Shown here: one piece after another, positions 38,264 to 55,187 of the stretch | How positions within the stretch are numbered: the stretch's first letter is position 1 | Layout of the letters: each line of letters opens with the position of its first letter | Source: Methylophaga sp. | GTDB taxonomy: Bacteria > Pseudomonadota > Gammaproteobacteria > Nitrosococcales > Methylophagaceae | Direction: 5' to 3' | Assembly (NCBI GenBank): GCA_011053005.1 | Contig: DRHW01000015.1 | Location: forward strand, 1 to 64,000 | DNA: 64,000 nt | The notes under the pieces: generated by a model | What the model was told of the DNA's origin: nothing | Databases searched by the model: none | What the model saw: the letters and a program-made list of their open reading frames with translations, nothing else | Position numbers and translations under genes: made by a program

Positions 38264-39997
38264 ATGACTAACAATTCAGGTTCAAATGATGGGACTAGCG
38301 GAGGTGCCTATACTGATGCAATTACTGCTGATTTATATGAAGATGTGACGGCACAAAACGCGACACTTCATCGAAAAATTGGTTGGCAAGGTGCATTTTG
38401 GGTGGCAAGTGGTGTACCTGCTTTAGTACTATTTTCAATGGGAGCGATATCAGCCACGGTGGGAAAGCCGGCATGGTTAATATGGATGATCTCGATTAGT
38501 TTTGGTTTTATTCAAGCATTTACTTATGCAGAAATTGCAGGGTTATTTCCACATAAATCAGGTGGTGCGTCAGTCTACGGGGCAGTTGCTTGGGTGAGGT
38601 ACAGTAAGTTTATTGCCCCAGTGTCGGTGTGGTGTAACTGGTTTGCTTGGTCGCCAGTATTAGCAATTGGTTCAGGTTTAGCAGGTGGTTACATCATGGG
38701 CGCATTGTTTGAGCCTGATGCTGTAATTAATACTTGGCAAATTACACTCATCGATCTCAGTGGTCTCAAAGAAGGTCTATCGTTGCGTATTAATGCAACC
38801 TTTATTGTTGGTGTGACCTTATTATTATCCGTATTTGCTATTCAACATGGCGGTATTCTCCGTTCAGCTAAGACAACAACGGTACTAGGTTTAACGGCAT
38901 TAGTGCCATTAATGTTGATCGGTATAGTGCCGTTAATTACTGGCGACGTGATGACCGAGAATTTTTTCCCTTTATCACCACTTGCATTTGATTCTGTTGG
39001 TAATGTAATTGATGGTGCATGGGATCTTCCTGCTTGGTCATTAATGGCGGGCGGTCTTTTTATTGCTGCATGGTCTACCTATGGTTTTGAGACAGCAGTT
39101 TGTTATACCCGTGAGTTTAAAAATCCTAAGACTGACACATTTAAAGCAATTATTTACTCTGGATTGTTATGCATTGCGGTATTCACTTTAGTACCTATCG
39201 CTTTTCAAGGAAATCTTGGATTAGGCGAGATGGTAACACCGGCTGTGGTTGATGCTGCAGGAACGGTTATTTCACCTGCTGTTTATGATGGTATGTTGGC
39301 GGCAGATGTTTATAGCGGAATGGGTATTGCGAAAATTCTTTCTGGTATGTTGGGCGATAGTGCAGTTATTGCCAATATTCTGGTGGTAATGTTTGTACTG
39401 GCTTTATTGTTATCAATTATGACATCGATGGCAGGCTCATCTCGTACTTTGTATCAAGCTTCTGTTGATGGTTGGTTGCCTAAATATCTTTCTCACGTAA
39501 ACGAGCATGGTGCTCCAACTAGGGCAATGTGGACTGATTTAGCCTTCAATTTATGTTTACTGATGATGTCAGATTATGTGTTTGTATTAGCTATTTCAAA
39601 CGTTGGTTACATCATCTTTAACTTCCTCAATCTTAATTCTGGTTGGATACATCGAATGGATCGACCTGACTGGTCTCGACCTTATAGAGCGCCGACTATT
39701 TTGTTAGTTTTTGGTGGAATATTGGCCTATGTAAATCTTATGTTAATGGGATTGGGTGCTAATATTTGGGGTGAAGGTACATTGATGACAGGTCTGATTT
39801 TTGCAACATTGATTATTCCTGTCTTTATGTATCGTCATTATGTTCAAGATAAAGGCGTATTTCCTAAGGCGATGCTAGAAGATATGCATTTAACTGGTGA
39901 AGAAGTAGGTGTTTCTAGTCGTGCAGGAATGTTGCCATATATTGCATTGTTAGCAGGAATATTTGTTGTTTATTACTCGCACAGCTTAGTGAGCTAA
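38264..39997 (+). CDS. APC-superfamily permease upstream of trimethylamine dehydrogenase
   Basis: 577 residues, longer than the usual ~450-500, with an acidic polar N-terminus (~45 residues) and about twelve to fourteen helices. APC features: GWQGAFWVASGVPALVLFSMGAISATVGK (helix 1), FTYAEIAGLFPHKSGGASVYGAVAW, WSTYGFETAVCYTREFKNPKTDTFKAI and MAGSSRTLYQASVDGWLPKYLSHVNEHGAPTRAMW. It is divergent from the first APC permease in the window. Sitting alone just before tmd, with a shared type of upstream element, it is a good candidate for the TMA/DMA importer. Terminator follows. Confidence 0.85.
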   Translation: MTNNSGSNDGTSGGAYTDAITADLYEDVTAQNATLHRKIGWQGAFWVASGVPALVLFSMGAISATVGKPAWLIWMISISFGFIQAFTYAEIAGLFPHKSGGASVYGAVAWVRYSKFIAPVSVWCNWFAWSPVLAIGSGLAGGYIMGALFEPDAVINTWQITLIDLSGLKEGLSLRINATFIVGVTLLLSVFAIQHGGILRSAKTTTVLGLTALVPLMLIGIVPLITGDVMTENFFPLSPLAFDSVGNVIDGAWDLPAWSLMAGGLFIAAWSTYGFETAVCYTREFKNPKTDTFKAIIYSGLLCIAVFTLVPIAFQGNLGLGEMVTPAVVDAAGTVISPAVYDGMLAADVYSGMGIAKILSGMLGDSAVIANILVVMFVLALLLSIMTSMAGSSRTLYQASVDGWLPKYLSHVNEHGAPTRAMWTDLAFNLCLLMMSDYVFVLAISNVGYIIFNFLNLNSGWIHRMDRPDWSRPYRAPTILLVFGGILAYVNLMLMGLGANIWGEGTLMTGLIFATLIIPVFMYRHYVQDKGVFPKAMLEDMHLTGEEVGVSSRAGMLPYIALLAGIFVVYYSHSLVS

Positions 39998-40222: not shown

Positions 40223-42430
<2,208 letters not shown>

Positions 42431-42525: not shown

Positions 42526-44670
42526 ATGAACGAAATAACAGAGCCAACTCGCATCCTGTTTGAAGGATTTCAGTTACAGACAATTTATTTGTTTTATGCC
42601 TTTGGTTACGCAGCTATCGCTGTATTTATTTATGGTTGCTATGTACAAATAAGAAAATATCGACGTGGTCAACCTGATCCATCGTGGAATAACTTTGTAA
42701 CACGCTTTGGCAGTATGGTCGTCACCATGCTGACTCACCGAACTATTAAGCGTCGTGACTCAGCAGCAGGTAAGGCACATGCGTTGATTTTCTTTGGTTT
42801 TATCTTGTTATTTATCGGTACGGCAACGATTACCCTTGAATATGACATTATTGAACCCTTATTCGGTGTGACTTTTTGGAAAGGCTCATTTTACCTATGG
42901 TTCTCATTGATACTAGATGTAGCTGGTTTGGCATTTATCGCCGGTTTACTTTATATGATGTATCGCCGTAAGTGGATGCATTTACCTAAGCTAGACTACA
43001 AGCGCGTGGATCGCGAGCCAGGTGATCCTGACTACGATCGTAGTGAGTATCGTCGTGAAGATTGGGCGTTTTTATGGACACTTATTATTATCAGCGTAAC
43101 AGGCTTTGTTTTAGAAGCAACACGTTTGGTATGGCTGAGCGAAACAGCCTCTGTTTGGGATGTCCGTATGTGGTCTCCCGTTGGTGCTTTTCTAGCGATG
43201 ATCATGAAAGGTATTGGCTTTACACCTGAAGCTGCCGGTGTATTTAGAACTGGGCTTTGGTGGTTCCATGGCATGTTAGCTTTAGCCTTTATCGCCTTGA
43301 TTCCCTATACAAAAGTTAAACATATCTTTACTGCATCGGCATCGTTGATGTTCCGTGATGAAATGGCAGGCCGCCGCTTGCCAATGGTACCTGAAGATCA
43401 AGTAGAAGCCGGCTATAAAAAGATTGATGATTTAACGTGGAAGTCATTATTACATTTAGATGCGTGTACTAAATGTGGTCGTTGCCAAGATGCATGTCCT
43501 GCAAATGCTGTGGGAGCACCACTTTCACCGCGCGACGTTATCTTGTCATTACGCGAATTTGCGAATAAGGCTTTAACTAAAAAAGAGTTACCCGAAGAAG
43601 CAGAGTTAGATATTCACGGTAAAGATGTTGGCCAAGTATTTATGGAAACATTATGGTCATGCCGCACTTGTTTAGCCTGTGTAGAAATTTGCCCTGTTGC
43701 CGTTGAACATGTGCCTATTATCGTGCAAATGCGTCGTCAATTGGTAGAACAAGGCGATATGGATCCTATTTTACAAAAAACATTGGGTACTATTCATAAG
43801 AGTGGTAATTCATTTGGCGAATCAAAACGAAAACGTGCGAAATGGGCTCAAGATCTACCATTTGAAATTAAAGATGCTCGTAAAGAACCGGTCGATGTTT
43901 TGTGGTTTGTCGGAGACTATGCGTCGTTTGACCCTAGAAATCAGGTGGTAACACGATCGTTTGCCAAGCTTTTAAATCAAGCAGGCGTCAACTTCGGTCT
44001 GTTATTTGAAGCCGAAATGAACTCAGGAAATGATGTACGCCGCGTGGGTGAAGAAGGGTTATATGAGTTCTTAGCCACATCAAATATCGGCACTTTACAA
44101 TCCTGCGATTTTAAATCGATTGTAACTACGGACCCACATTCATTTAATACGATTCGTAATGAGTATCCTGATTTTGGTGGTGAGTTTGAAATTCAACATT
44201 ACACCACCTTGGTTAAGGAGTTATTTGAGCAAGGAAAACTGAAACTCAATAAACAGAACAATAAACGTGTGACTTTCCATGATCCTTGTCACTTAGGCCG
44301 TTATAACAAAGGCTATGACGCACCACGTGAAGTTATTAAATTACTGGGTTATGACTTAGTAGAGATGGATCGGAATCGTGATAACTCATTCTGCTGTGGT
44401 GCCGGTGGTGGTCGTATTTGGATCCCAGATCCAGTAGGTATTGAAAAACCATCAGCAAATCGGATGCGTGAAGCAGGTGCCATTGAAGGGTTAGAAGTGT
44501 TTATTGTTTCTTGTCCAAAAGACTTAACCATGTTTGAAGATGCACTGAAAACATCGGGGTTTGAAGGTCAGTTTGTAGTACGTGAGTTAATTGAGTTGAT
44601 TAATGATTGTGTCGAATACGATGACTCAATTATTGAAACACAAGAAACTGCAGAACACGTTGCTGTATGA
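42526..44670 (+). CDS. Membrane-bound Fe-S electron-transfer oxidoreductase (HdrDE/DgcB-like)
   Basis: 714 residues. The N-terminal ~270 residues have about six helices (LQTIYLFYAFGYAAIAVFIYGCYV, AHALIFFGFILLFIGTATITL and others) of cytochrome-b/NarI type. A ferredoxin domain follows with two 4Fe-4S sites: CTKCGRCQDACP (~313-324) and CRTCLACVEICP (~380-391). At the C-terminus are two CCG-type cysteine-rich segments, FHDPCHLGRYNKG and NSFCCGAGGGRIW. This is the architecture of quinone-linked oxidoreductases such as DgcB that take electrons from ETF or flavoproteins. With tmd upstream and etfBA downstream it would carry Tmd/ETF electrons to the quinone pool, replacing ETF-QO. The stop overlaps the LRV gene by 4 nt. 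Confidence 0.88.
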   Translation: MNEITEPTRILFEGFQLQTIYLFYAFGYAAIAVFIYGCYVQIRKYRRGQPDPSWNNFVTRFGSMVVTMLTHRTIKRRDSAAGKAHALIFFGFILLFIGTATITLEYDIIEPLFGVTFWKGSFYLWFSLILDVAGLAFIAGLLYMMYRRKWMHLPKLDYKRVDREPGDPDYDRSEYRREDWAFLWTLIIISVTGFVLEATRLVWLSETASVWDVRMWSPVGAFLAMIMKGIGFTPEAAGVFRTGLWWFHGMLALAFIALIPYTKVKHIFTASASLMFRDEMAGRRLPMVPEDQVEAGYKKIDDLTWKSLLHLDACTKCGRCQDACPANAVGAPLSPRDVILSLREFANKALTKKELPEEAELDIHGKDVGQVFMETLWSCRTCLACVEICPVAVEHVPIIVQMRRQLVEQGDMDPILQKTLGTIHKSGNSFGESKRKRAKWAQDLPFEIKDARKEPVDVLWFVGDYASFDPRNQVVTRSFAKLLNQAGVNFGLLFEAEMNSGNDVRRVGEEGLYEFLATSNIGTLQSCDFKSIVTTDPHSFNTIRNEYPDFGGEFEIQHYTTLVKELFEQGKLKLNKQNNKRVTFHDPCHLGRYNKGYDAPREVIKLLGYDLVEMDRNRDNSFCCGAGGGRIWIPDPVGIEKPSANRMREAGAIEGLEVFIVSCPKDLTMFEDALKTSGFEGQFVVRELIELINDCVEYDDSIIETQETAEHVAV

Positions 44671-46028
44671 GTCCAGAAAATGCCCATGCATTAGTGAAGG
44701 TTGCCATAGAGTCGAAAGATATTTATGCGGCTGTCGCTGTTTATGATATTGCACACGGCGATGATCGAACTGCATTAGAAGCGATTTTTACTCATGAGCG
44801 ACGCCATATATTGAAGTTGGCACGCTGGGAACATACCCCAGCCAGCGTGCTCAAGGCTCTATCAAAGTTACATGATGAAACGGTTCAGTTACGGATTGAT
44901 AAAAATCCTAGTACTGACGGATCAACATTAGAGCAACAATATTTGGAAGTGGGTAGTTCTAAACTGATTGATTTGATCGCACAACATGGCAATGCTTCAG
45001 TAGAAGTATTGTTGGGTATCGCGACACGTGAAGATGATGTGCAGATTGTGAAAGCGGTGTGTAGCAATCCTAACTCAGATGACTGGATTCTGATTACCAT
45101 AGATCGACGGTTTAAAAGCTATTTTGATCGTGAAATAGCGGTACATTTGAATGCGCCTAGTGCTTTATTAGAAACGATTTATGCACGAGGTAATGCTTAT
45201 ATTAAAGCGGCAGTAGTAACACATAAAAACTGTCCACAAACGTTATTAGAAAAAGCCTCTAATGAGTCAGATCTCACGATATTGCGACATTTAGCAGGTA
45301 ATGAAAATATTGCCAAAAATGCGTTGGTAAGACTAGCACAACATACGGATCCTTCGGTCAGGCGAGTAGCGGCGAGTAATCCTTTGTTATGTCATTCAGA
45401 AGTTGAAAAACTAGCTAGAGATAAAGTAGTTGCAGTAAGACGAGCTGTTGCTTCACGAAGTGATCTTACGCCCTCGTTACTTGGCTATTTGGCTCAGGAT
45501 TCTTATCACTGGGTGAGACTTTGGGTTGCTCGTAACCCAGCAATGCCGATTGATTTACTGGCGGTATTAGCCCAAGACGACAATATGGAAGTAAGACGAT
45601 CGGTTGCAAGGAATGCTGAGTGCCCAAAAGAATTACTAAAACAATTAGCCGAAGATGACGTTTCATGGGTTAGAGCAGCAGTGGCATACCAAAAAAATGC
45701 AGCCGTTGATTTGTTGAATAAATTACAGGATGACGATGATGTGGATGTGTTGTGTGGAGTTGCCAATAATGGCCATACACCACAAACGGTGTTGCAAAGA
45801 TTAGCTAAATCGAAAAATGATGATATTCGACGAGGGATTATTTTGAATGTTAATGCCTCACGTAAAACATTATTGCCGTTGCTACAAGATCCTTATTATT
45901 TACACCGTTTGTTATTGGTCGGTAATAAGGCATTGCTCGATGAGGATAGATGGACTATGCACGACGACGCTGATCCTTCGGTCAGGTTCATCGTCTTTAA
46001 ATGGTTTGCTAAAAAATTTATGCAGTAA
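44667..46028 (+). CDS. LRV-type helical-repeat protein in the tmd-etf operon
   Basis: 453 residues built largely of ~24-residue helical repeats such as NPAMPIDLLAVLAQDDNMEVRRSVARN, NAECPKELLKQLAEDDVSWVRAAVAY and NNGHTPQTVLQRLAKSKNDDIRRGIILN (from ~160 to ~430), matching the leucine-rich-repeat variant (LRV) pattern. The Azotobacter LRV protein has an N-terminal 4Fe-4S cluster; no such Cys cluster is seen here. The start overlaps the Fe-S oxidoreductase stop (ATGA), so the pair is co-translated. A scaffold or assembly role for the electron-transfer complex is inferred; no function is established. Confidence 0.82.
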   Translation: MSPENAHALVKVAIESKDIYAAVAVYDIAHGDDRTALEAIFTHERRHILKLARWEHTPASVLKALSKLHDETVQLRIDKNPSTDGSTLEQQYLEVGSSKLIDLIAQHGNASVEVLLGIATREDDVQIVKAVCSNPNSDDWILITIDRRFKSYFDREIAVHLNAPSALLETIYARGNAYIKAAVVTHKNCPQTLLEKASNESDLTILRHLAGNENIAKNALVRLAQHTDPSVRRVAASNPLLCHSEVEKLARDKVVAVRRAVASRSDLTPSLLGYLAQDSYHWVRLWVARNPAMPIDLLAVLAQDDNMEVRRSVARNAECPKELLKQLAEDDVSWVRAAVAYQKNAAVDLLNKLQDDDDVDVLCGVANNGHTPQTVLQRLAKSKNDDIRRGIILNVNASRKTLLPLLQDPYYLHRLLLVGNKALLDEDRWTMHDDADPSVRFIVFKWFAKKFMQ

Positions 46029-46078: not shown

Positions 46079-46873
46079 ATGAAAATACTAGTAGCAGTTA
46101 AAGAGGTTGCGGCCTTAGATGAGGATTTTGAATTACGCGATGATGGGCGTGATGTTGATGAAGATTTTTTACTGTACGACCTAAACGAATGGGATGATTT
46201 TTCACTAGAAGAAGCGATGCGGATCAAAGAAGAATCGGATACCGACGTTGAAGTTGTCGTGGTTTCTATTGGACCAGATCGCATTGAAGATAGTCTTCGT
46301 AAATGCTTGGCGAAAGGTGCCGATCGGGCAATTAGAGTATGGGATGATTCAATGGAGGGTTCTGACTCTATTACTATTGGTCATGTTTTAGCGGCAGTGG
46401 CTAAAAAAGAATCGCCTAATATGATTTTTGCCGGTGTGCAATCTTCTGATGAAGCAAACGCTTCAACAGGTATTTCATTAGCCAGTAAATTAGGTTGGCC
46501 TCATGCCGCTGTGGTTGCAGGCTTAAAATACGCTGCAAATGATAGTAAAGCGCTGATCTCACGTGAACTTGAAAGTGGCTTATCGCAAGAAGTTGAAATC
46601 GTTTGTCCTTCTGTTTTAACGATTCAATTGGGTATTAATACGCCTCGTTACGCTTCTTTACGCGGTATAAAACAGGCTGCCAAAATCGACATTGAAGAAT
46701 TATCACCTAGTGATTTAGGCTTATCAGATCAAGATGTGGGTCTAAATAGTGCTAAATCCAATATTCGCCGTATGTACGTGCCGGTGAAAGGTCGAGCAGA
46801 AATTATTGAAGGTACACCTGCTGAAAAAGCAGCCAAGCTGATAGATATTATTAAGAACTTCAAAGGAGAGTAG
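46079..46873 (+). CDS. etfB: Electron transfer flavoprotein, beta subunit
   Basis: 264 residues with the ETF-beta pattern MKILVAVKEVAALDEDFELRDDG, FSLEEAMRIKEE, DRIEDSLRKCLAKGADRAIRVWD and PNMIFAGVQSSDEANASTGISLASKLGWPHAAVV (AMP-binding). It forms the heterodimeric FAD/AMP carrier with EtfA, accepting electrons from Tmd. AGGAGAGTACAC upstream of the start. The acidic DDGRDVDEDFLLYDLNEWDDFSLEE replaces the common N-D loop, as in the methylotroph ETF. Confidence 0.93.
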   Translation: MKILVAVKEVAALDEDFELRDDGRDVDEDFLLYDLNEWDDFSLEEAMRIKEESDTDVEVVVVSIGPDRIEDSLRKCLAKGADRAIRVWDDSMEGSDSITIGHVLAAVAKKESPNMIFAGVQSSDEANASTGISLASKLGWPHAAVVAGLKYAANDSKALISRELESGLSQEVEIVCPSVLTIQLGINTPRYASLRGIKQAAKIDIEELSPSDLGLSDQDVGLNSAKSNIRRMYVPVKGRAEIIEGTPAEKAAKLIDIIKNFKGE

Positions 46874-46875
46874 AG

Positions 46876-47838
46876 ATGAAGACTATTTTAGTCATTACGG
46901 AGCATCGCCGTAACGAATTACGCCCAATATCTTTGGAACTCATCACAGCTGCACAAGATTTACGTCAAGCCGGTGACGATAAAGTCGTTGTAGCGGTCAT
47001 TGGCAATCAAGCTGAATCCTATATTCCTGAACTATCTGTTCAAGGCGTTGATGAAATTATCATGATTAAAGATGACACAACAGAATTTGATCCAGATATT
47101 TATCAAGCGACGGTAAGTGCATTGATAGAAAGTCAACAACCAGCGGTTGTGTTACTGCCACATTCCATTGATTCATTAGGTTATGCTGCGACATTAGTTG
47201 AAAAAAGTAATGTCGGCTTTGCAACTGACGTATTTCAACTGGAGTACGATGGTGATGATTTGGTAGCCACACGTGCAGGCTACAATCAAAAAGTAAATGT
47301 TGAAATCGATTTCCCTAATAAGGATCTTGTGATTTTGACCGTGCGTCCTGGTGTTTATAAACCAATTGAAGAATCAGCAACACCTGTGGTTTCTACTCAA
47401 CAAGCTGTGTCAGTTGAGTCACGTAGTAAAAATATACAATTTGTTGAGTTAGCCAGTGATGGTGATGTTGATATAACGACATCAGAATTTATGATGTCGA
47501 TTGGTCGAGGTATTGCCGAAGAAGATAATGTTGAGCAATTCCGTGAATTAGCAGAAATGCTAGGCGCAACCTTAGGTTGCTCCCGACCAATTGCTGATGC
47601 AGGCTGGTTACCTAAATCTAGACAAGTAGGCCAATCAGGTAAAGTGGTGGGTGCGTGTAAACTTTATCTGGCGATGGGGATTTCTGGCTCTATTCAACAT
47701 ATGGCTGGTATGAAACATGTTCCAACTATCGTGGCGGTGAATACTGATCCTAATGCTTCAATTTTCACCATAGCTAAATACGGCATTGTGGGTGATATTT
47801 TTGAAGTAGAAGAAGAGTTACGTGATCTTATAGGTTAA
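46876..47838 (+). CDS. etfA: Electron transfer flavoprotein, alpha subunit
   Basis: 320 residues. The C-terminal FAD domain carries GCSRPIADAGWLPKSRQVGQSGKVVGACKLYLAMGISGSIQHMAGM, and VAVNTDPNASIFTIAKYGIVGDIFEV, the canonical FAD site. Two nucleotides after etfB, so co-translated. Together with EtfB it is the acceptor of Tmd. A good terminator follows the stop. Confidence 0.95.
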   Translation: MKTILVITEHRRNELRPISLELITAAQDLRQAGDDKVVVAVIGNQAESYIPELSVQGVDEIIMIKDDTTEFDPDIYQATVSALIESQQPAVVLLPHSIDSLGYAATLVEKSNVGFATDVFQLEYDGDDLVATRAGYNQKVNVEIDFPNKDLVILTVRPGVYKPIEESATPVVSTQQAVSVESRSKNIQFVELASDGDVDITTSEFMMSIGRGIAEEDNVEQFRELAEMLGATLGCSRPIADAGWLPKSRQVGQSGKVVGACKLYLAMGISGSIQHMAGMKHVPTIVAVNTDPNASIFTIAKYGIVGDIFEVEEELRDLIG

Positions 47839-48094: not shown

Positions 48095-49210
48095 ATGACT
48101 AGAAATTCAATCTTAAATGAACGACATCGGGCACTAGGATCATCTTTGGATGGCGAAACATGGAATGATATGTCTATTCCTTGGAGCTACAATAATGATC
48201 CACAAGATGAAGTTGTCGCAGTCAGAACCTGTGCAGGACTTTACGATATTTCGGCATTAAATATTCTCAACGTAACAGGATCTGATGCCGTTAGTGTACT
48301 AGATAAGTTAGTCGCGATTGATGTGACATCTATAGCACCAGGATCTTCAAAACTAGCTGCTGAAGTAGATGAATCTGGAGCCATTATCGACGACATTATG
48401 ATTATTCGTGATGCTCAAGATGCGTTTCGAGTATCACATGGCAGTGGTAAAACGCATGAAACGTTAACGCATTTAGCCAAAGGCAAAGACGTTAATATTG
48501 AGGCTGATACCGATGGCCATATCCTATCATTTCAAGGGCCTAAATCATTAGAAATACTTGCCCCCCATATTGATTGTAATCTAGCTGAACTTCCTTATTT
48601 TAAACATCAAAAAACCACATTATTTGGCTGTGATATTTACATTGCTCGAGGTGGTTATTCTGGTGAACGTGGTTATGAAGTTTATTGTGCTTCCAAAGAT
48701 GCTGTTGAGATTTGGGATACGATTTTAGAAGTAGGACAGCCTTTTGGTGCAATAGCAGCTTCTTGGGATTCACTTGATCTAGCCCGTATTGAAGCTGGTC
48801 TATTATTTTTCCCATTTGAAATGCCGGAAGGTGATACCACTCCTTGGGAAGTCAATATGGCTTGGGGAGTTGATGTTAATAAAAAAGCAGATTATGTCGG
48901 CAAAGAAGCATTATTAAAATTGAGAGGCCGTGAACGCTTTAAACAGACCGGACTAGTTTGTAAAAGCAGTTCGGCAGTTGAAGCTGGAGCTAAATTAATC
49001 AAGGATGGAAAAGAAATTGGTGTTGTAACCAGTGCATGTTTTAGCCGATATTTGATGCTTTCTATTGCCATGGTTCACATTAAACCGGAATTCTCTCAGG
49101 TTGGTACTTCACTTACCGTAGTTGGGTCGACTGAATGTAAAGCCGTAGTTGCTCGTACGCCATTTTATGATCCAATGCGACTGAGAAGTCACCCTGAAAA
49201 AAGCAAATAG
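48095..49210 (+). CDS. dmmD: Dimethylamine-linked GcvT-like aminomethyltransferase (DmmD)
   Basis: 371 residues of the GcvT/aminomethyltransferase family: ARTCAGLYDISALNILNVTGSDAVSVLDKLVAIDV, FRVSHGSGKTHETL, GYSGERGYEVYCA and the C-terminal domain FKQTGLVCKSSSAV. In dimethylamine oxidisers the first gene of dmmDABC has this fold and is thought to move the formaldehyde-level C1 unit from DMA to tetrahydrofolate. It heads the set here in the same order as reported for marine Roseobacter dmmDABC. A regulatory element sits ~75 nt upstream. Confidence 0.88.
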   Translation: MTRNSILNERHRALGSSLDGETWNDMSIPWSYNNDPQDEVVAVRTCAGLYDISALNILNVTGSDAVSVLDKLVAIDVTSIAPGSSKLAAEVDESGAIIDDIMIIRDAQDAFRVSHGSGKTHETLTHLAKGKDVNIEADTDGHILSFQGPKSLEILAPHIDCNLAELPYFKHQKTTLFGCDIYIARGGYSGERGYEVYCASKDAVEIWDTILEVGQPFGAIAASWDSLDLARIEAGLLFFPFEMPEGDTTPWEVNMAWGVDVNKKADYVGKEALLKLRGRERFKQTGLVCKSSSAVEAGAKLIKDGKEIGVVTSACFSRYLMLSIAMVHIKPEFSQVGTSLTVVGSTECKAVVARTPFYDPMRLRSHPEKSK

Positions 49211-49291: not shown

Positions 49292-49894
49292 ATGGAACGA
49301 CAATACTGGATTAGAAGTAAACCTGTATACACTTCGTTGCTATGGCATGAAAAGGCGACGGCTCACTTAGTGATTGCTGAAGGCGATGGCGGAATGGCTG
49401 TATTGAAGTTATTGCAGCAGAAATATCCTACACAACAGGTCAATGGTTTTTTTGTTAAATCGCCAAACGCTTTAAAAAACTATGCCGACATTATTAGTAG
49501 CTTAGCGCCAGCCGAATTTAAGGTATTTGGTAATACTACAGAGGCATTAAATTCATTAAAAATCACTTTAGCTGATTGCTGTATGGGCACATGTTTTTAT
49601 GTTGCTGGCTCTGAGGGATTTATTTGGCAAGTAGCAAAAGTATTGGCTAGTGTTGGTGTGCAAGATGATGATATTGACAAAGAGTTATGTGGCACCTTAG
49701 CTCGCACTGTTTATTGTGTTCACTGTAAAGCGATTACTCACGATGCTCATCATAGTGTTGTTGCTTGCTCTGGTTGCCAGCGTCAATTATTTATTCGAGA
49801 CCATTTTTCAAGACGATTAGGCGCCTATATGGGCTTGATGGTGGATGCTGAGCAACCTGGCATTTTACCGAGTATTGAGGAGGTATACCCATGA
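49292..49894 (+). CDS. dmmA: Dimethylamine monooxygenase subunit DmmA
   Basis: 200 residues. Conserved-looking features are ITLADCCMGTCFYVAGSEGFIWQVA (~90-114) and a rubredoxin-like pair CVHCKAI...VACSGCQRQLFIRDHFSRRLGAYMG (~145-180), probably a zinc or iron site. The family occurs only with the other dmm genes. Identification rests on gene order (D-A-B-C), size and neighbours more than on a well-known motif. Overlaps dmmB by 4 nt. Confidence 0.78.
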   Translation: MERQYWIRSKPVYTSLLWHEKATAHLVIAEGDGGMAVLKLLQQKYPTQQVNGFFVKSPNALKNYADIISSLAPAEFKVFGNTTEALNSLKITLADCCMGTCFYVAGSEGFIWQVAKVLASVGVQDDDIDKELCGTLARTVYCVHCKAITHDAHHSVVACSGCQRQLFIRDHFSRRLGAYMGLMVDAEQPGILPSIEEVYP

Positions 49895-50844
49895 GTCATT
49901 TAAACGTAAAAGTAGCTGCTATTGAACAAGTAACTGAGCATGTAAAACACTTTACTTTTATAAGTGAAAATGGTGAAAAATTACCGGCTTTTTCAGGTGG
50001 CAGCCATGTGGTGCTAGCATTAAATATTAATGGCAGAATTCATCGTAACCCTTATTCATTGATGAGTTCACCGCTTAATACTGAACACTATGGGGTTTCA
50101 GTCAGAAAACAAGAGATGTCACGCGGCGGTTCAGTCTTCATGCATGAACAGATTAAAGTCGGTTCACGTATTCAAATAACGTATCCCGTTAATCTATTTT
50201 CTATTTCAAAATTAAGTCATAAAAATATACTAATTGCAGGTGGCATTGGTATTACGCCGTTTTTGTCTCAAATTGTTGACTTGAACAGAATGGATACAGA
50301 ATATGAATTGCATTATGCCTATCGCTCACCAGAACATGGTGCATTTCGACAACAAATTGAAGATATGTGCGGTGAGCGTAGCCATTTTTATGTGGCGAGT
50401 GATGGCCAGATATTAGATTTTTATGCGCTACTTTCAAAGCAACCTTTAGGAACGCATGTCTATGTCTGTGGGCCAGAACCTATGGTCAATGCAATGATTG
50501 CAGCAGCACGAGATTTAGGCTGGCCTGAAAAACATATTCACAACGAACAATTTACAGCACCTCAAGCAGGTGAATCATTCAAAGTAAAATTGGCACTTTC
50601 TAATATTGAGCTTGAAGTACCTAGTGAAATGAGCATGTTGGAGGCGATAGAAGAGGCGGGTGTTGATGCGCCTTATTTATGCCGAGGCGGGGCATGCGGT
50701 CGTTGCGAACTTGACGTTGTGTCGTGTGATGGTTCGATAGTTCATCATGATAATTATTTAACGAATGCAGAGAAAACCGGTGGTAAAAAAATCATGCCTT
50801 GTGTTTCTCGGGCTAAATGCCAACAAATTGTGGTTAACCTCTAG
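49891..50844 (+). CDS. dmmB: Dimethylamine monooxygenase reductase subunit DmmB (PDR/VanB type)
   Basis: 317 residues: flavin domain with RNPYSLMSSP (~50-59) and SRGGSVFMHE, NAD(P)H domain IAGGIGITPFLSQI (~115-128) and YVCGPEPMVNAMIAAA, then a C-terminal plant-type 2Fe-2S ferredoxin with CRGGACGRCELDV (~271-283) and a final Cys (MPCVSRAKC). It moves NAD(P)H electrons to the heme subunit. Such FNR-ferredoxin fusions (phthalate dioxygenase reductase) serve oxygenases. ATGA overlap with dmmA; a 9-nt gap to dmmC. Confidence 0.9.
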   Translation: MSHLNVKVAAIEQVTEHVKHFTFISENGEKLPAFSGGSHVVLALNINGRIHRNPYSLMSSPLNTEHYGVSVRKQEMSRGGSVFMHEQIKVGSRIQITYPVNLFSISKLSHKNILIAGGIGITPFLSQIVDLNRMDTEYELHYAYRSPEHGAFRQQIEDMCGERSHFYVASDGQILDFYALLSKQPLGTHVYVCGPEPMVNAMIAAARDLGWPEKHIHNEQFTAPQAGESFKVKLALSNIELEVPSEMSMLEAIEEAGVDAPYLCRGGACGRCELDVVSCDGSIVHHDNYLTNAEKTGGKKIMPCVSRAKCQQIVVNL

Positions 50845-50853
50845 GGTAATAGT

Positions 50854-51873
50854 ATGAATCAAACATTCAAAAAAGAAACATTCAGAGACGATTATACATT
50901 TAGCAATTCGCCTGAAGCAGTGAAGCGATTTCCGTTTCCTTTTCATGAAGATGAATACATGTATTCAGTCAATATCGAGCCTCATGTTAAAACTGCAGTC
51001 GGATCAATTACGGAATTTACATTCGATATAGATGAGCATTATGTTGCTGAATGTGAAGATAAAGCTATCACCTTGGCAAATGATCCTCAGCGCTATCTGT
51101 GTCTTCCACATATGATGGATGCACAGTGGGATACTTTAGAGCTAATGATGGAATCAATGTCGAACGACTATCCAGAGCAATTTAATTTGACGAAAGAGGG
51201 TGATAATTGGACATGGGTTAATAAACCATTAGGCATTACCACTAAATTTGTATTTGGTGACGAAAGTTCATTACCTATGGAACCGCTGGAATATATTGGG
51301 CGTCAAGTGCAAGGCGATTGGGTTATGCTCGATCAACGTGATAATAATTTGTTTGCCGATGGTGCAATAGTTACCTCACAAGCTGATTGGTCATTAGCGA
51401 TTGATGTCGGAATGTCTTGGCAAGAATGGCATGGACCCGTACCCATAGCAAATGAGATTGGGGTGTTTGATCGTGCACTTAAATACTTACTGAATCTACA
51501 ACTCGGTAGTCCGGTTCGTCGGCTTAATTGGACGATGACCATCAATCCTCGTTTAGATACATCACCAGAAAACTATCCTATTTGGGGACCTGATCGCCTT
51601 TCGGTTACGCCTGAAAATGTTGGTGATAAAGTACATCTTCGTGTTGAGTTACAAACATTATTTCGCTTGCCAAGAAGTAACGGCATGCTGTTTGGGGTTC
51701 GTGGTTATTTAATAAGTATGAATGAGCTTGTGACCAATCCACTTTGGGCAAAACGTTTACATCGCGTATTAAAGGGTTTGCACCCTGAACTTGCTGAATA
51801 CAAAGGCTTGTCTTATAAAGATATCACGATTGATTGGTTATCAAAATATGATGATGGTACGTCATCAGAATAA
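50854..51873 (+). CDS. dmmC: Dimethylamine monooxygenase catalytic subunit DmmC (DUF3445, heme-dependent N-demethylase)
   Basis: 339 residues of the DUF3445 family: FPFPFHEDEYMYSVNIEPHV, WDTLELMMESMSNDYPEQF, FADGAIVTSQADWSLAIDVGMSWQEWHGPVPIAN and DRLSVTPENVGDKVHLRVELQTLFRLPRSNGMLFGVRGY. Members are heme-dependent oxidative N-demethylases. With NAD(P)H and O2 it is expected to convert DMA to methylamine plus a C1 unit. The heme ligand cannot be named with certainty. It ends the dmmDABC set, convergent with the PAS sensor gene (20-nt gap). Confidence 0.9.
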   Translation: MNQTFKKETFRDDYTFSNSPEAVKRFPFPFHEDEYMYSVNIEPHVKTAVGSITEFTFDIDEHYVAECEDKAITLANDPQRYLCLPHMMDAQWDTLELMMESMSNDYPEQFNLTKEGDNWTWVNKPLGITTKFVFGDESSLPMEPLEYIGRQVQGDWVMLDQRDNNLFADGAIVTSQADWSLAIDVGMSWQEWHGPVPIANEIGVFDRALKYLLNLQLGSPVRRLNWTMTINPRLDTSPENYPIWGPDRLSVTPENVGDKVHLRVELQTLFRLPRSNGMLFGVRGYLISMNELVTNPLWAKRLHRVLKGLHPELAEYKGLSYKDITIDWLSKYDDGTSSE

Positions 51874-51893: not shown

Positions 51894-53321
51894 TTACAGC
51901 TGCATGTAATAGTTAACCGATTGATTTTCAGGTAATACTAAAAGCGATTGTAAGGATAATAAAGCAGGATTAATGTTGCTGTTAGCATGGCTAATTTGCG
52001 TTATTAATCCTTCTAAAGACAATAAATCACCGGTACTGGAATAGATACCTTGTCCTTGTTCCAGTACCCATTTAATTTTGCCTGTTCGAGTGATAATTCG
52101 ATAGATAAGTTGGAATTTTTGTTCTTTTAAAATCTGTTGTTGTACATATTCCCATACATTTGTTTTGTCTTGCTCATGAATTATTTGCATATATGAAAAA
52201 CCAGGCGATTTAGCTATTTCATACGCTTCATATTCAGTTAGTTCTAGGCAACCATCACTGGTAAATTCAAAACTCCAGCTACGGTCATTTTTACAACGGT
52301 AAACCATAGAAGGAAAACCGCTCAGGATCATATCAATAGGATCTTTTCTGTTGGCTTTCATGCTGATTTCAGTTTGTTTCATTCGGCTTATATCGGTAAA
52401 TGAGCCGATTACACTAGTAAATTCGCCTTTGAGTGAAGAAGCTGTAGACGCTCTCATTTCAACCCATAAAGGACAACCATTTTTGGCAATTAAGCGTGTT
52501 TGTAAGTGACAACTTTTGCGTTGACCTCGTGACAAAGGTCCAAGGCGAGCTTCAAAAAGTTGTGTATCTTCTGGATGGATAAAAGACAAAAGCGATTTAT
52601 TGATACTTTCTACCAAGGTGTAATCAAGCATTCGCTCCCAAGATGGGTTAATAAATATAAGTTGTTGATCAACATTGATTTGAAACATTATTTGTTCAAC
52701 GCTATCAAGAATAAAACGAGAATCAAATTGATCAATAAGTGGACTAGCTACTGCTTTATGATGAGAGGAAGTTGTAAATTGTAATAAATTTAAATTCGAT
52801 TCACCGCTTTGCTGTAAAGGAGATAAAGAAATATGTACGGGAATACTTGTGCCATCAACGTATAACATACGAATCGTAGTTATTTCATTATTTTCAAGCG
52901 CACCAGTGCTCATGGCAATCATTTGTGCCAGATTATCGTGCTCTGATGGATGAACTAAATTCGTTATTGGCATACCGATGACTTGATCATTTGATCCAGA
53001 TAAACCCAGTTCATCCAGAAACATATTATTGGTGAAGATAACGGTATAACCTCGGAGGACGGCAGCTGGTGTTGAAAGCTTACTAGAAGCATCGGTACAC
53101 CAAGAAAGATGATCGAGATTGTTATGTTTGGTATTTGAAGTGAAGCGGGGTCTTAAAATTGGGTATACAGTAATTAATAAAATTAAGGAAAAGATAGTAA
53201 CGATAAACATGATTAATGCTGTCATATGAACAGTAAAGGGGGCACTGTTTTCCCACCACATTCCGAAAGTGATCATAAAAATGGTGCTAAGTGTGGCCAT
53301 GCATAAAAGAAGTAAAGTCAT
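51894..53321 (-). CDS. Membrane PAS-domain sensor without an output domain
   Basis: 475 residues. Two N-terminal helices (LLLLCMATLSTIFMITFGMWW, MTALIMFIVTIFSLILLITVYPIL) precede three PAS-like modules at ~75-185 (YTVIFTNNMFLDELG), ~205-320 (INVDQQLIFINPSWERMLDY...WVEMRASTA...IGSFTDISRM) and ~330-445 (MVYRCKNDRSWSFEFTSDGCLELTEYEAYEIA...WVLEQGQGIY). No histidine kinase, GGDEF, EAL or methyl-acceptor domain follows. Start codons of this gene and the divergent histidine kinase are only 42 nt apart. It may therefore pass signal to that kinase by protein contact. Confidence 0.82.
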   Translation of the reverse strand: MTLLLLCMATLSTIFMITFGMWWENSAPFTVHMTALIMFIVTIFSLILLITVYPILRPRFTSNTKHNNLDHLSWCTDASSKLSTPAAVLRGYTVIFTNNMFLDELGLSGSNDQVIGMPITNLVHPSEHDNLAQMIAMSTGALENNEITTIRMLYVDGTSIPVHISLSPLQQSGESNLNLLQFTTSSHHKAVASPLIDQFDSRFILDSVEQIMFQINVDQQLIFINPSWERMLDYTLVESINKSLLSFIHPEDTQLFEARLGPLSRGQRKSCHLQTRLIAKNGCPLWVEMRASTASSLKGEFTSVIGSFTDISRMKQTEISMKANRKDPIDMILSGFPSMVYRCKNDRSWSFEFTSDGCLELTEYEAYEIAKSPGFSYMQIIHEQDKTNVWEYVQQQILKEQKFQLIYRIITRTGKIKWVLEQGQGIYSSTGDLLSLEGLITQISHANSNINPALLSLQSLLVLPENQSVNYYMQL

Positions 53322-53363: not shown

Positions 53364-55187
53364 TTGTCTAATAAATACGTTGAGCTAGCCTCTAAGATCC
53401 GAAAATTCAGTAAACATGTCATCTATATAAGATTCATGTTACTCATGCTATGTATCGCGCTCACTGTCACGCTGATGCAGGCAGGATCTATGTTTTTATT
53501 AGATTATATCCCTTCTAGGCACTCAACCATAGGCAAAATTAACACCCAAGAAATCTTCTGGCATAGCCAGTTAGCCGTTGTCGAAGTTAGCCAAATTAAA
53601 GAAGCTAAAAAGAGACTAAATACCTTAACCGAGCACTTTATAAATGATTTAGAAACGGATAGGAAATTTAGATCATTGGATTCTGTTGTAGCCGTCGATA
53701 AGGTTCAACAAGCTCAGCAACAATTTTATGAAGCGCTTGGTGACCAGAAGCCTTTGATGACATTAATACAACATGCAAAAGAGGTTATGGATTCATATGA
53801 ACGTTTAAAAATGGCAATTCATGATGATATAGAAGTGAAACAATCTATAACAGCATTACTTCAATTGATGGGACTGCTGTTTATCATGATTTGTATAGCA
53901 ACGATTACTTTAGAAGGCCAAAAACTATTGATCACACGCTTGAGTAATTTAAATAAGTTTATGTTTGATAATCTTAATCGCGATGAATCAAAATTGATGA
54001 CAGATGAATTCACATATTTAGAACAAACTGTTTATGAACTTACGACGCGATTAGAAGGCTATGTGACAGAATCATCATGGGCAAATAATACGAGTGATCA
54101 TGTTAGGGCATTAATCAATGCTCAAGAGTTTTTGTTTAAGTTTGTCGAAATGGCAAATGATAATACGTTGAGTGAACGAACCTTACTCAAAATGCTTTAT
54201 TCGCTTGAAAGAACGATGAAATTCAACAATGTTGCTGTTATTTATACTGATGATGCAGCGGTTATTTCTACAGAGCGTGTCATCTTTTCAGACCATACAC
54301 CAATAGCTATTAGGAAAGAGGTTTACGATGAACTTGAAATCTCTGGTATGGCTAAATATCATGAGCTGAATATTGACGATGTCGAAGTAGGTTGTTTAGG
54401 TGTCATCTTTTCTGGCTCATCTGCTGCGATGGGCATACTGTTAGTTGAAATGGATAACGATCGTTTTTTAGAAGATTCTGAAATTAAAGTCCTTGATATT
54501 ACTGCGAAGCTTTTGACGATGGTGATTAGATTCCAAAGTCATGATGAGGAAGGACGTCGAATAGCGATACTAGAAGAACGTGCTGCAATAGGCAGAGAGC
54601 TACATGATTCTTTGGCACAATCATTGTCATATATGAAAATTCAGCTTGCTCGACTGCAATCAAAGGTGGGCAATTTGACCGATGATAATGGTGATAAAGT
54701 GGATTTGAGCGATTTGCGTGAAGGTCTCGACCATGCTTATCGTGGTTTACGCGAATTATTGTCTACATTCCGAGCCCATATGGATTTACGTGGTCTTGGC
54801 TACGCCATACAGTCAGCGATTGATGAATTCTCGCAACGTTCTTCCCTAGCAATCACCTTGGATAATCGATTGGTTAATTGCCGATTAACCGTTAATGAAG
54901 AATTCCATATTTTACAAGTTGTTCGCGAAGCATTGTCAAATATTGTGCGTCATTCAGGTGCCGATAAGGTGACTATATTAATGTTGTTGAAGCCGAATGA
55001 TTCCGTTGAAATAACTATTGATGACAACGGTAGTGGCTTTATTCCAGCTGACGATAAATATGATCATCATGGCCAAGCTATTATGAAAGAACGAGCATAC
55101 AATCTTGGTGGCACGATTGATGTTATGGCAATAAGACAAGGTGGCACACGGGTTAAATTAACATTTATGCCCAAACTGGCTCAATAG
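53364..55187 (+). CDS. NarX/DegS-type sensor histidine kinase
   Basis: ~607 residues from a TTG (53364); ATG 53436 is an alternative. Helix 1 (MLLMLCIALTVTLMQAGSMFLL) and helix 2 (SITALLQLMGLLFIMICIATITL) flank a ~130-residue sensory part containing helical segments. A cytosolic GAF-like region follows. HisKA_3 phosphoacceptor box: ERAAIGRELHDSLAQSLSYMKIQLARL (His in HD). The HATPase part carries REALSNIVRHSGADKV and DDNGSGFI. The DHp/ATPase layout is NarX-like. It pairs with the response regulator 17 nt downstream. It has no PAS domain; a PAS-only protein is encoded divergently. Confidence 0.87.
   Translation: MSNKYVELASKIRKFSKHVIYIRFMLLMLCIALTVTLMQAGSMFLLDYIPSRHSTIGKINTQEIFWHSQLAVVEVSQIKEAKKRLNTLTEHFINDLETDRKFRSLDSVVAVDKVQQAQQQFYEALGDQKPLMTLIQHAKEVMDSYERLKMAIHDDIEVKQSITALLQLMGLLFIMICIATITLEGQKLLITRLSNLNKFMFDNLNRDESKLMTDEFTYLEQTVYELTTRLEGYVTESSWANNTSDHVRALINAQEFLFKFVEMANDNTLSERTLLKMLYSLERTMKFNNVAVIYTDDAAVISTERVIFSDHTPIAIRKEVYDELEISGMAKYHELNIDDVEVGCLGVIFSGSSAAMGILLVEMDNDRFLEDSEIKVLDITAKLLTMVIRFQSHDEEGRRIAILEERAAIGRELHDSLAQSLSYMKIQLARLQSKVGNLTDDNGDKVDLSDLREGLDHAYRGLRELLSTFRAHMDLRGLGYAIQSAIDEFSQRSSLAITLDNRLVNCRLTVNEEFHILQVVREALSNIVRHSGADKVTILMLLKPNDSVEITIDDNGSGFIPADDKYDHHGQAIMKERAYNLGGTIDVMAIRQGGTRVKLTFMPKLAQ

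Follow-up and report, generated by a model that had tools for sequence, protein, structure and literature searches.

The gene for an LRV solenoid protein, encoded between an EtfD-type membrane oxidoreductase (EMO) and EtfB, is a fixed member of cassettes that encode trimethylamine dehydrogenase (TMADH), and its full-length homologues occur only inside such TMADH-EMO-LRV-EtfBA cassettes. We report this for a 64,000-nucleotide stretch of Methylophaga sp. DNA (the whole of which we call the window) and for its relatives in other genomes and plasmids. Our preferred reading, held tentatively and at slightly less than an even chance, is that the LRV protein is a docking scaffold that would hold ETF at EMO for the ETF-to-quinone step.

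Results

The cassette in the window

The genes and sites discussed below all lie on the forward strand:

38264..39997, +, permease, cassette neighbour (NCBIfam trimethylamine N-oxide permease NF053774, above cut-off)
40238..42430, +, TMADH (PF00724; active-site residues)
42526..44670, +, EMO, EtfD-type membrane Fe-S/haem oxidoreductase of 714 residues, presumed ETF:quinone oxidoreductase (CCG and Fer4 domains)
42985..43062, +, EMO residues 154-179, loop between the third and fourth hydrophobic segments
43555..43653, +, EMO residues 344-376, between the two 4Fe-4S motifs
44667..44670, +, ATGA overlap of EMO stop and LRV start
44667..46028, +, LRV solenoid protein of 453 residues, ATG start (Pfam and AlphaFold2)
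46079..46873, +, EtfB (PF01012)
46876..47838, +, EtfA (PF01012, PF00766)

The ATG of the LRV open reading frame overlaps the TGA of the EMO frame, an arrangement that suggests translational coupling of the two genes, and a similarly close spacing is found in most homologous loci. The etfB start lies 50 bases past the LRV stop, and etfA comes next. An earlier note on this DNA had described a 453-residue LRV solenoid, joined by an ATGA overlap, between the oxidoreductase and etfBA; the reading frames, Pfam and AlphaFold2 confirm that description. The gene that it called Tmd is indeed TMADH, matching 1djn/2tmd from end to end (1514.8 bits), with 1o94/1o95 also listed under the sequence. A PAS protein and a histidine kinase neighbour the cassette, and a flavin-synthesis gene is present as well in some Methylophaga cassettes.

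EMO has the membrane helices, two 4Fe-4S motifs and CCG domain of the EMO/EtfD family, as well as kinship to EtfD, and it has a solved relative in 9ojn (E = 1.1e-72). It has hydrophobic segments within the N-terminal 200 residues; the structure prediction for this protein (mean pLDDT 58.6) is used only for a remark on the helices. The loop at residues 154-179 carries a motif like RPDRxPxDPDY that is kept in LRV-linked EMOs and absent from the other EMOs compared, including the EMO-EtfB fusions described below, and we regard this loop as a candidate contact for LRV. Residues 344-376, which are longer in LRV-linked EMOs than in two fused relatives, are a weaker candidate. The loop motif may mark descent only, as the LRV-linked EMOs form one clade.

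Linkage and co-occurrence

The order TMADH-EMO-LRV-EtfB-EtfA is fixed in Methylophaga relatives, Methylophilaceae, Hyphomicrobiales, Paracoccus, Azoarcus, Paraburkholderia and Cupriavidus, and every full-length homologue with a readable neighbourhood is placed between EMO and EtfB. Among 30 genome loci, EtfB lies downstream of LRV in all 30, EMO upstream in 29 (one contig stops inside LRV), and a piece of TMADH nearby in 27, the others being contig ends. The same placement is found in seven of seven plasmid records (six read, the seventh judged by coordinates), and LRV sits in the cassette in 7/7 cases among 397 Hyphomicrobiales genomes and in 4/4 cases among 399 genomes of the order of Novimethylophilus. 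When 150 Methylophilaceae genomes are searched for TMADH (at least 85% identity), EMO (at least 74%) and full-length LRV, all three are found in an identical set of 22. Within the window's genus, two of 29 genomes have all three and the remaining 27 have none; in its own genome the LRV gene is single-copy. The co-occurrence with tmd and the Fe-S oxidoreductase, to which the earlier note had looked for support, is thus strongly favourable. Homologues lying generally outside ETF-linked operons, which would have refuted the note's idea, are not seen among those of full length. Matches outside ETF operons are partial (genomes G985, G1038, G1082 and G1161), and Methylophilaceae contain nine further places with weak matches. 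In four cases LRV is in two pieces (L038, L040, L041, G507), which may reflect draft-assembly error or decay.

The existing annotation of a homologous LRV protein is hypothetical. In the open-licence literature we found no paper joining TMADH with leucine-rich repeats, HEAT repeats or Methylophaga, and none that joins LRV with ETF or describes this LRV protein.

EMO loci without LRV

LRV adjoins an EMO of 61-77% identity in 7/7 genomes, and an EMO of 42-54% identity in 0/4. Distant EMO homologues of the DgcB, fatty-acid and haloarchaeal types are without it, and none stands beside the separate dimethylamine-dehydrogenase (DMADH)-like paralogue. Across 398 sampled genomes of the phylum, a match was obtained in 31, including the window's own, and one match yielded no locus; LRV was found within 1.5 kb on either side in none of the 29 EMO loci. 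It was likewise absent from all nine EMO regions read among 42 plasmid records with an EMO not linked to LRV. On these two samples we rejected LRV as a general partner of EMO.

In Shinella sp. PSBB067 (L080) and in genome G741 (L113, L121), EMO and EtfB are encoded in one open frame, within an operon that lacks LRV, and a linker of about 110-130 residues occupies the junction where LRV is otherwise encoded. These relatives (L080, L121) share with the present cassette the order dehydrogenase-EMO-EtfB-EtfA, but differ from it in making EMO and EtfB as one polypeptide without LRV. Compared with the window's TMADH, the dehydrogenase of Shinella is 49% identical and that of G741 60%, and in G741 all seven active-site residues inspected are kept, the flavinylation cysteine included. 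No LRV match was obtained when the G741 genome was searched in its sample.

Fold of the LRV protein

The protein matches PF01816 (Pfam LRV) with E = 2.4e-18 and 65.6 bits, against a curated cut-off of 21.6, and so belongs to this repeat family, as do all 19 homologues scanned; HEAT (7.3e-8) and LRV_2 (1e-7) also match. A match to the hydrogenase-maturation model PRK10466 is attributed to chance (E = 5e-4; 19.8 bits, against a cut-off of 190). The AlphaFold2 model, made with 25 sequences (mean pLDDT 95.7, pTM 0.82), predicts 34 helices along the whole chain, that is, an all-helical solenoid of two-helix repeats. Among its best structural matches are the scaffold subunit of PP2A and designed binders of the alpha-Rep type, with importins also listed, in a list from which the absence of a family does not exclude it. 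The PP2A HEAT scaffold PR65 and the alpha-Rep binders are likewise extended right-handed helical solenoids, but the TM-scores are low (0.3-0.4), the rmsd is large for full-length fits, and the structural comparison gives no evidence of common descent with function. A solenoid fold shared with the PP2A scaffold, importins and alpha-Rep by itself shows no function.

The nearest solved sequence is the Azotobacter LRV protein (1lrv, E = 5e-5), which shares the LRV repeats and matches the model with 26% identity over 216 columns (Z 13.0, rmsd 5.5, 219 aligned). It is, however, about half as long, and matches only the C-terminal half of the present protein. The Azotobacter protein has an N-terminal part with a cysteine motif for a 4Fe-4S cluster, and its gene is linked to those of nitrogenase. 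This N-terminal part with its cysteines is absent here, just as the earlier note had said; the first cysteine comes no earlier than residue 132, and the LRV neighbours in all loci read are TMADH, EMO and EtfBA, rather than nitrogenase genes. The comparison with nitrogenase, which the note had also drawn, therefore adds little. Among the homologues there is one nearly invariant cysteine column, C189; a conserved cysteine cluster is absent, and we dropped the reading of LRV as an Fe-S protein. No catalytic or metal-binding residues are evident in the protein.

Evolutionary rate and selection

The evolutionary rate of LRV is about three times that of its cassette neighbours. Its dN/dS is 0.065-0.30 in seven of seven close pairs, indicating purifying selection, as compared with 0.008-0.049 for the other four cassette genes. 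Since homologues hold the frame and its place down to 29% pairwise identity, and since dN/dS is low in all seven pairs, the open reading frame is more than a product of chance.

A branch-rate analysis took the place of a plain distance-matrix correlation. Broken or cut loci (L038-L041) were left out of the alignments and rate analyses, L032 and L040 (contigs without TMADH) were left out of the TMADH-based analyses, and L010, L011 and L013 were also left out (duplicates of the L013/L024 genomes, or unknown residues). In relative rate over 57 branches, LRV correlates with EtfA (Spearman 0.53; 0.43-0.57 over ten subsets), less steadily with EMO (0.16-0.61) and little with EtfB (0.02-0.40), and it does not covary with TMADH (-0.11 to 0.19). 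The method is not specific, because TMADH and EMO, which have no known contact, are linked by it too (0.23-0.62), and the p-values carry no correction for how many pairs were compared.

Discussion

TMADH oxidises trimethylamine and passes the electrons to ETF, as is established for this pair, which is a textbook case of electron handover between proteins. Reduced ETF would then have to reach the Fe-S head of EMO. The LRV protein, translated directly after EMO and before EtfB, would bind the cytoplasmic side of EMO and would also bind ETF, mainly through EtfA, and this would keep ETF close to its acceptor. Mycobacterial EtfD (PMC13083937) provides the analogy for the last step, in which EMO would pass the electrons through its Fe-S clusters and haem b to quinone.

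Docking is supported because full-length LRV is always linked to EMO-EtfB and co-occurs with TMADH and EMO, because relatives lacking LRV carry an EMO-EtfB fusion at its junction, because its rate tracks those of EtfA and EMO and not that of TMADH, because the EMO loop motif is kept with LRV and missing in fused relatives, and because the predicted fold is a protein-binding solenoid. The pattern of linkage to EMO, EtfB, EtfA and TMADH suggests that LRV may hold the electron-carrying partners together at the membrane. It counts against docking that purified TMADH and ETF have been studied in the absence of LRV. Nor is a tether a general need, since, so far as is known, neither LRV nor a fusion is needed for the EMOs of DgcAB operons, haloarchaea, Agrobacterium and Bacillaceae to function.

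The earlier note had offered a chaperone as well as a docking scaffold; the fusions and the rate link to EtfA and EMO fit docking better, and neither role is proved. As an assembly factor, LRV would bind nascent EMO or apo-ETF and aid cofactor insertion or membrane assembly, outside the working chain. The overlap with the EMO gene in the window, the fast evolution under weak purifying selection that is common for such factors, the rate link to EtfA and EMO and the lack of evident catalytic or metal-binding residues all suit this role, and the flavin-synthesis gene of some Methylophaga cassettes shows that cofactor supply matters there. We rank it as the main rival, though less likely than docking, given that other EMOs with like Fe-S motifs mature without LRV, that LRV copy number tracks the EMO cassette in all 22 Methylophilaceae, and that its absence from fused relatives is unexpected under a pure maturation role.

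A partnership with TMADH, in flavinylation, folding or TMADH-ETF docking, would explain why full-length LRV accompanies only TMADH-type cassettes and why the DMADH-like paralogue has no LRV beside it. We think it improbable: the rates of LRV and TMADH do not covary, recombinant TMADH produced without LRV is active, and G741 has no LRV although the inspected TMADH active-site residues are kept. A regulatory or sequestering protein that binds ETF to limit electron flow is within a solenoid's capability, and the strongest rate link is with EtfA. Yet LRV is not patchy in its distribution but occurs in every intact cassette, and the cassette already has a PAS protein and a histidine kinase as neighbours, so that this role, or one unrelated to electron transfer, has a similarly small chance of being correct.

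The docking reading may be set beside other EMO systems. Mycobacterial EtfD, DgcAB-EtfAB and the fatty-acid EMO are modules of the family to which the window's oxidoreductase belongs, with EtfBA adjacent as here, whereas outside the TMADH clade no EMO locus that we examined has an LRV gene. In mycobacterial EtfD a C-terminal disordered region is predicted to contact ETF, and according to the authors of that work it is not known where on EtfD ETF binds (PMC13083937). A broader possibility, somewhat less likely than docking itself, is that the classical TMADH-ETF respiratory chain has in LRV an obligate component that had gone unrecognised and that tethers ETF permanently to its membrane acceptor, and that recruitment of ETF by EMO-type oxidoreductases has been solved in at least three independent ways: a solenoid partner, an EMO-EtfB fusion and the disordered tail of mycobacterial EtfD.

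Here a dedicated solenoid is fixed in the cassette and missing from the relatives in which EMO and EtfB are fused, and this offers a direct way into the question of how ETF reaches its membrane acceptor, in harmless methylotrophs of marine and fresh waters that can be cultivated. A likely process can thereby also be given to a protein of trimethylamine-consuming bacteria that is annotated as hypothetical.

Gene organization and the LRV protein

The gene studied here encodes a helical solenoid of the LRV type (453 residues), and it lies among the following genes of the window.

Genes around the LRV gene (positions, strand, product)
38264-39997, plus, TMAO permease-like protein
40238-42430, plus, trimethylamine dehydrogenase (TMADH), matching the solved TMADH end to end
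42526-44670, plus, EMO/EtfD-type Fe-S/haem oxidoreductase (EMO)
44667-46028, plus, LRV protein, its start overlapping the EMO stop
46079-46873, plus, EtfB
46876-47838, plus, EtfA
48095-49210, plus, GcvT-like protein
49292-51873, plus, dimethylamine monooxygenase subunits
51894-53321, minus, multi-PAS protein without a kinase domain
53364-55187, plus, histidine kinase, divergent from the multi-PAS gene

The earlier note had placed an LRV-type gene between EMO and etfBA, overlapping the former, and the same layout is seen here; we call the order TMADH-EMO-LRV-EtfB-EtfA the cassette. The window's TMADH retains all seven inspected positions that we take to be active-site residues (C30, Y60, Y169, H172, W264, D267 and W355, mature numbering).

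Pfam finds LRV repeats in the window protein and in 19/19 homologues scanned, AlphaFold2 predicts with high confidence an unbroken two-helix solenoid along the entire chain, and the closest solved protein is 1lrv. Since the protein has neither a conserved cysteine cluster nor a hydrophobic segment, it is most likely soluble and non-redox. The window's own genome holds one copy of this kind.

Among the flanking genes, the GcvT-like protein stands alone; it aligns with the C-terminal part of the trimethylamine N-oxide demethylase model (positions 384-761 of 763), scoring under that model's cut-off, and may transfer the released C1 unit to folate. Relatives of the PAS protein and histidine kinase pair adjoin many cassettes, in Azoarcus with a NarL-type regulator, and the pair are likely regulators of amine use. 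Lumazine synthase (ribH), absent from the window's own cassette, lies between EtfA and GcvT in 9 of 30 genome cassette loci (L014, L015, L016, L017, L019, L021, L022, L024, L038), hinting at a local flavin supply for a flavin-rich chain.

Distribution and co-occurrence

Genome contigs were first searched with an alignment of three sequences, which returned 30 LRV loci, all in Methylophaga, Methylophilaceae, two uncultured proteobacteria and Hyphomicrobium zavarzinii. The place of the gene is fixed: EtfB follows 3' in 30/30, EMO precedes 5' in 29/30 and TMADH sequence is present in 27/30, the missing genes belonging to loci cut by contig ends. The patterns of this first search came from close relatives, so the net was then widened with profiles. 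Of 28 plasmid records with an LRV match, 7 cover at least 80% of the protein, and 7/7 adjoin EMO; among 397 Hyphomicrobiales genomes 8 have a match, 7 of them full-length and 7/7 in cassette position; among 399 genomes of the order of Novimethylophilus the figures are 7, 4 and 4/4. All other matches are partial, and the 1.5 kb of flank read to either side contains neither EMO nor ETF (EtfB and EtfA). LRV-repeat proteins of a different group, about 230-410 residues long (genomes G985, G1038, G1082 and G1161, loci L096 and L101-L106, and weak Methylophilaceae places), lack EMO and ETF as neighbours in the flanking sequence that was read.

The co-occurrence with TMADH and EMO that the earlier note had proposed to examine is borne out: among 150 Methylophilaceae genomes, TMADH (at least 85% identity), EMO (at least 74%) and full-length LRV each occur in 22, and these are the same 22 genomes (LRV being split in two pieces in one), counts that are not independent events, the cassettes having spread by descent and transfer among genomes. 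The cassettes of this sample show no case of LRV loss. A further genome of the family, G577, has a 63% TMADH paralogue alone, with neither EMO at 74% or more nor LRV; its residue 60 is a glutamine, which dimethylamine dehydrogenase also has there and which we assume to be diagnostic of that enzyme. Paralogues of this dimethylamine-dehydrogenase-like kind (62-64%, glutamine at position 60) lie at L124:15313-17520, L122:8126-10333 and L123:7884-10091, with no EMO, LRV or ETF beside them in L122 and L123.

More distant EMOs occur without LRV. In 219 Hyphomicrobiales genomes (cut-off E 1e-90 or better) 11 have EMO, and LRV adjoins it in 7/7 at 61-77% identity and 0/4 at 42-54%. EMOs of 36-41% identity occur in 9 of the 150 Methylophilaceae genomes, 5 of which lack any LRV. 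Across the phylum, 31 of 398 genomes have an EMO homologue, with LRV at 0/29 readable foreign loci, and it is absent from all nine plasmid regions that carry other EMOs (Shinella, haloarchaea, Agrobacterium, Niallia, Priestia, Azospirillum).

An EMO-EtfB fusion in place of LRV

When two genes are fused, their products are classically taken to come into contact, and in two operons EMO and EtfB form a single polypeptide with a linker.

Fused EMO-EtfB frames
L080:7001-10078, Shinella sp. PSBB067
L121:4050-7217, genome G741

The linker, of about 110-130 residues, stands where the LRV gene otherwise sits, and LRV is absent from both operons. Each also encodes a TMADH-family dehydrogenase: the G741 enzyme shares 60% identity with the window's TMADH, and the seven active-site residues are conserved in it; in the Shinella enzyme (49% identity) they are not, so it probably has another substrate.

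The nearest solved EMO relative is mycobacterial EtfD, for which a published study (PMC13083937) describes ETF as not found bound and its binding site as not known, a predicted model setting ETF against the disordered C-terminal region. EtfD has this disordered C-terminus, EMO is fused to EtfB in Shinella and G741, and LRV-linked EMOs have the LRV gene at the same junction. By our own comparison, the three groups thus seem to recruit ETF differently at the same protein end.

Evolutionary rates and possible roles

Across the 30 cassettes, mean pairwise identity is 44% for LRV, 86.5% for TMADH, 76% for EMO, 74.7% for EtfB and 69.2% for EtfA; the tree of LRV has about threefold the length of those of EMO, EtfB and EtfA, and across 7 close pairs LRV shows a dN/dS of 0.065-0.30 versus 0.008-0.049 for the other genes. 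We tentatively propose that LRV is a scaffold, which would bind the cytoplasmic face of EMO and also ETF, thereby holding ETF near its acceptor. The analysis establishes the cassette, its constancy, the predicted fold and the fused alternative; that LRV binds these partners, and what it does, is inference. Relative branch rates in ten subsets correlate between LRV and EtfA in all (0.43-0.57, falling to 0.32 in the weakest subset when all other genes serve as regressors), between LRV and EMO in most (0.16-0.61), and weakly between LRV and EtfB (0.02-0.40). The main alternative, that LRV helps to assemble EMO or ETF, we regard as less likely. LRV and TMADH are uncorrelated (-0.11 to 0.19), and that LRV is a partner of TMADH seems improbable; a regulatory or other role is just as doubtful. 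Pairs known to touch are positive (EtfA-EtfB 0.16-0.45, TMADH-EtfB 0.11-0.38), but TMADH-EMO is positive too (0.23-0.62), and the method is therefore suggestive only.

If LRV is such a scaffold, one candidate contact is a motif like PKLxYxRPDRxPxDPDY common to LRV-linked EMOs, in the loop linking hydrophobic segments 3 and 4, which is predicted from its lysines and arginines to be cytoplasmic. Fused relatives have another sequence there and haloarchaeal EMOs a deletion; the loop could be the LRV binding site or a mark of common descent only.

Two annotated records call the protein a 'hypothetical protein', and among the open-licence papers searched we found none that describes an LRV protein with a constant place in the TMADH-ETF-EMO chain. 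The LRV fold and the neighbouring enzymes are of known kinds.
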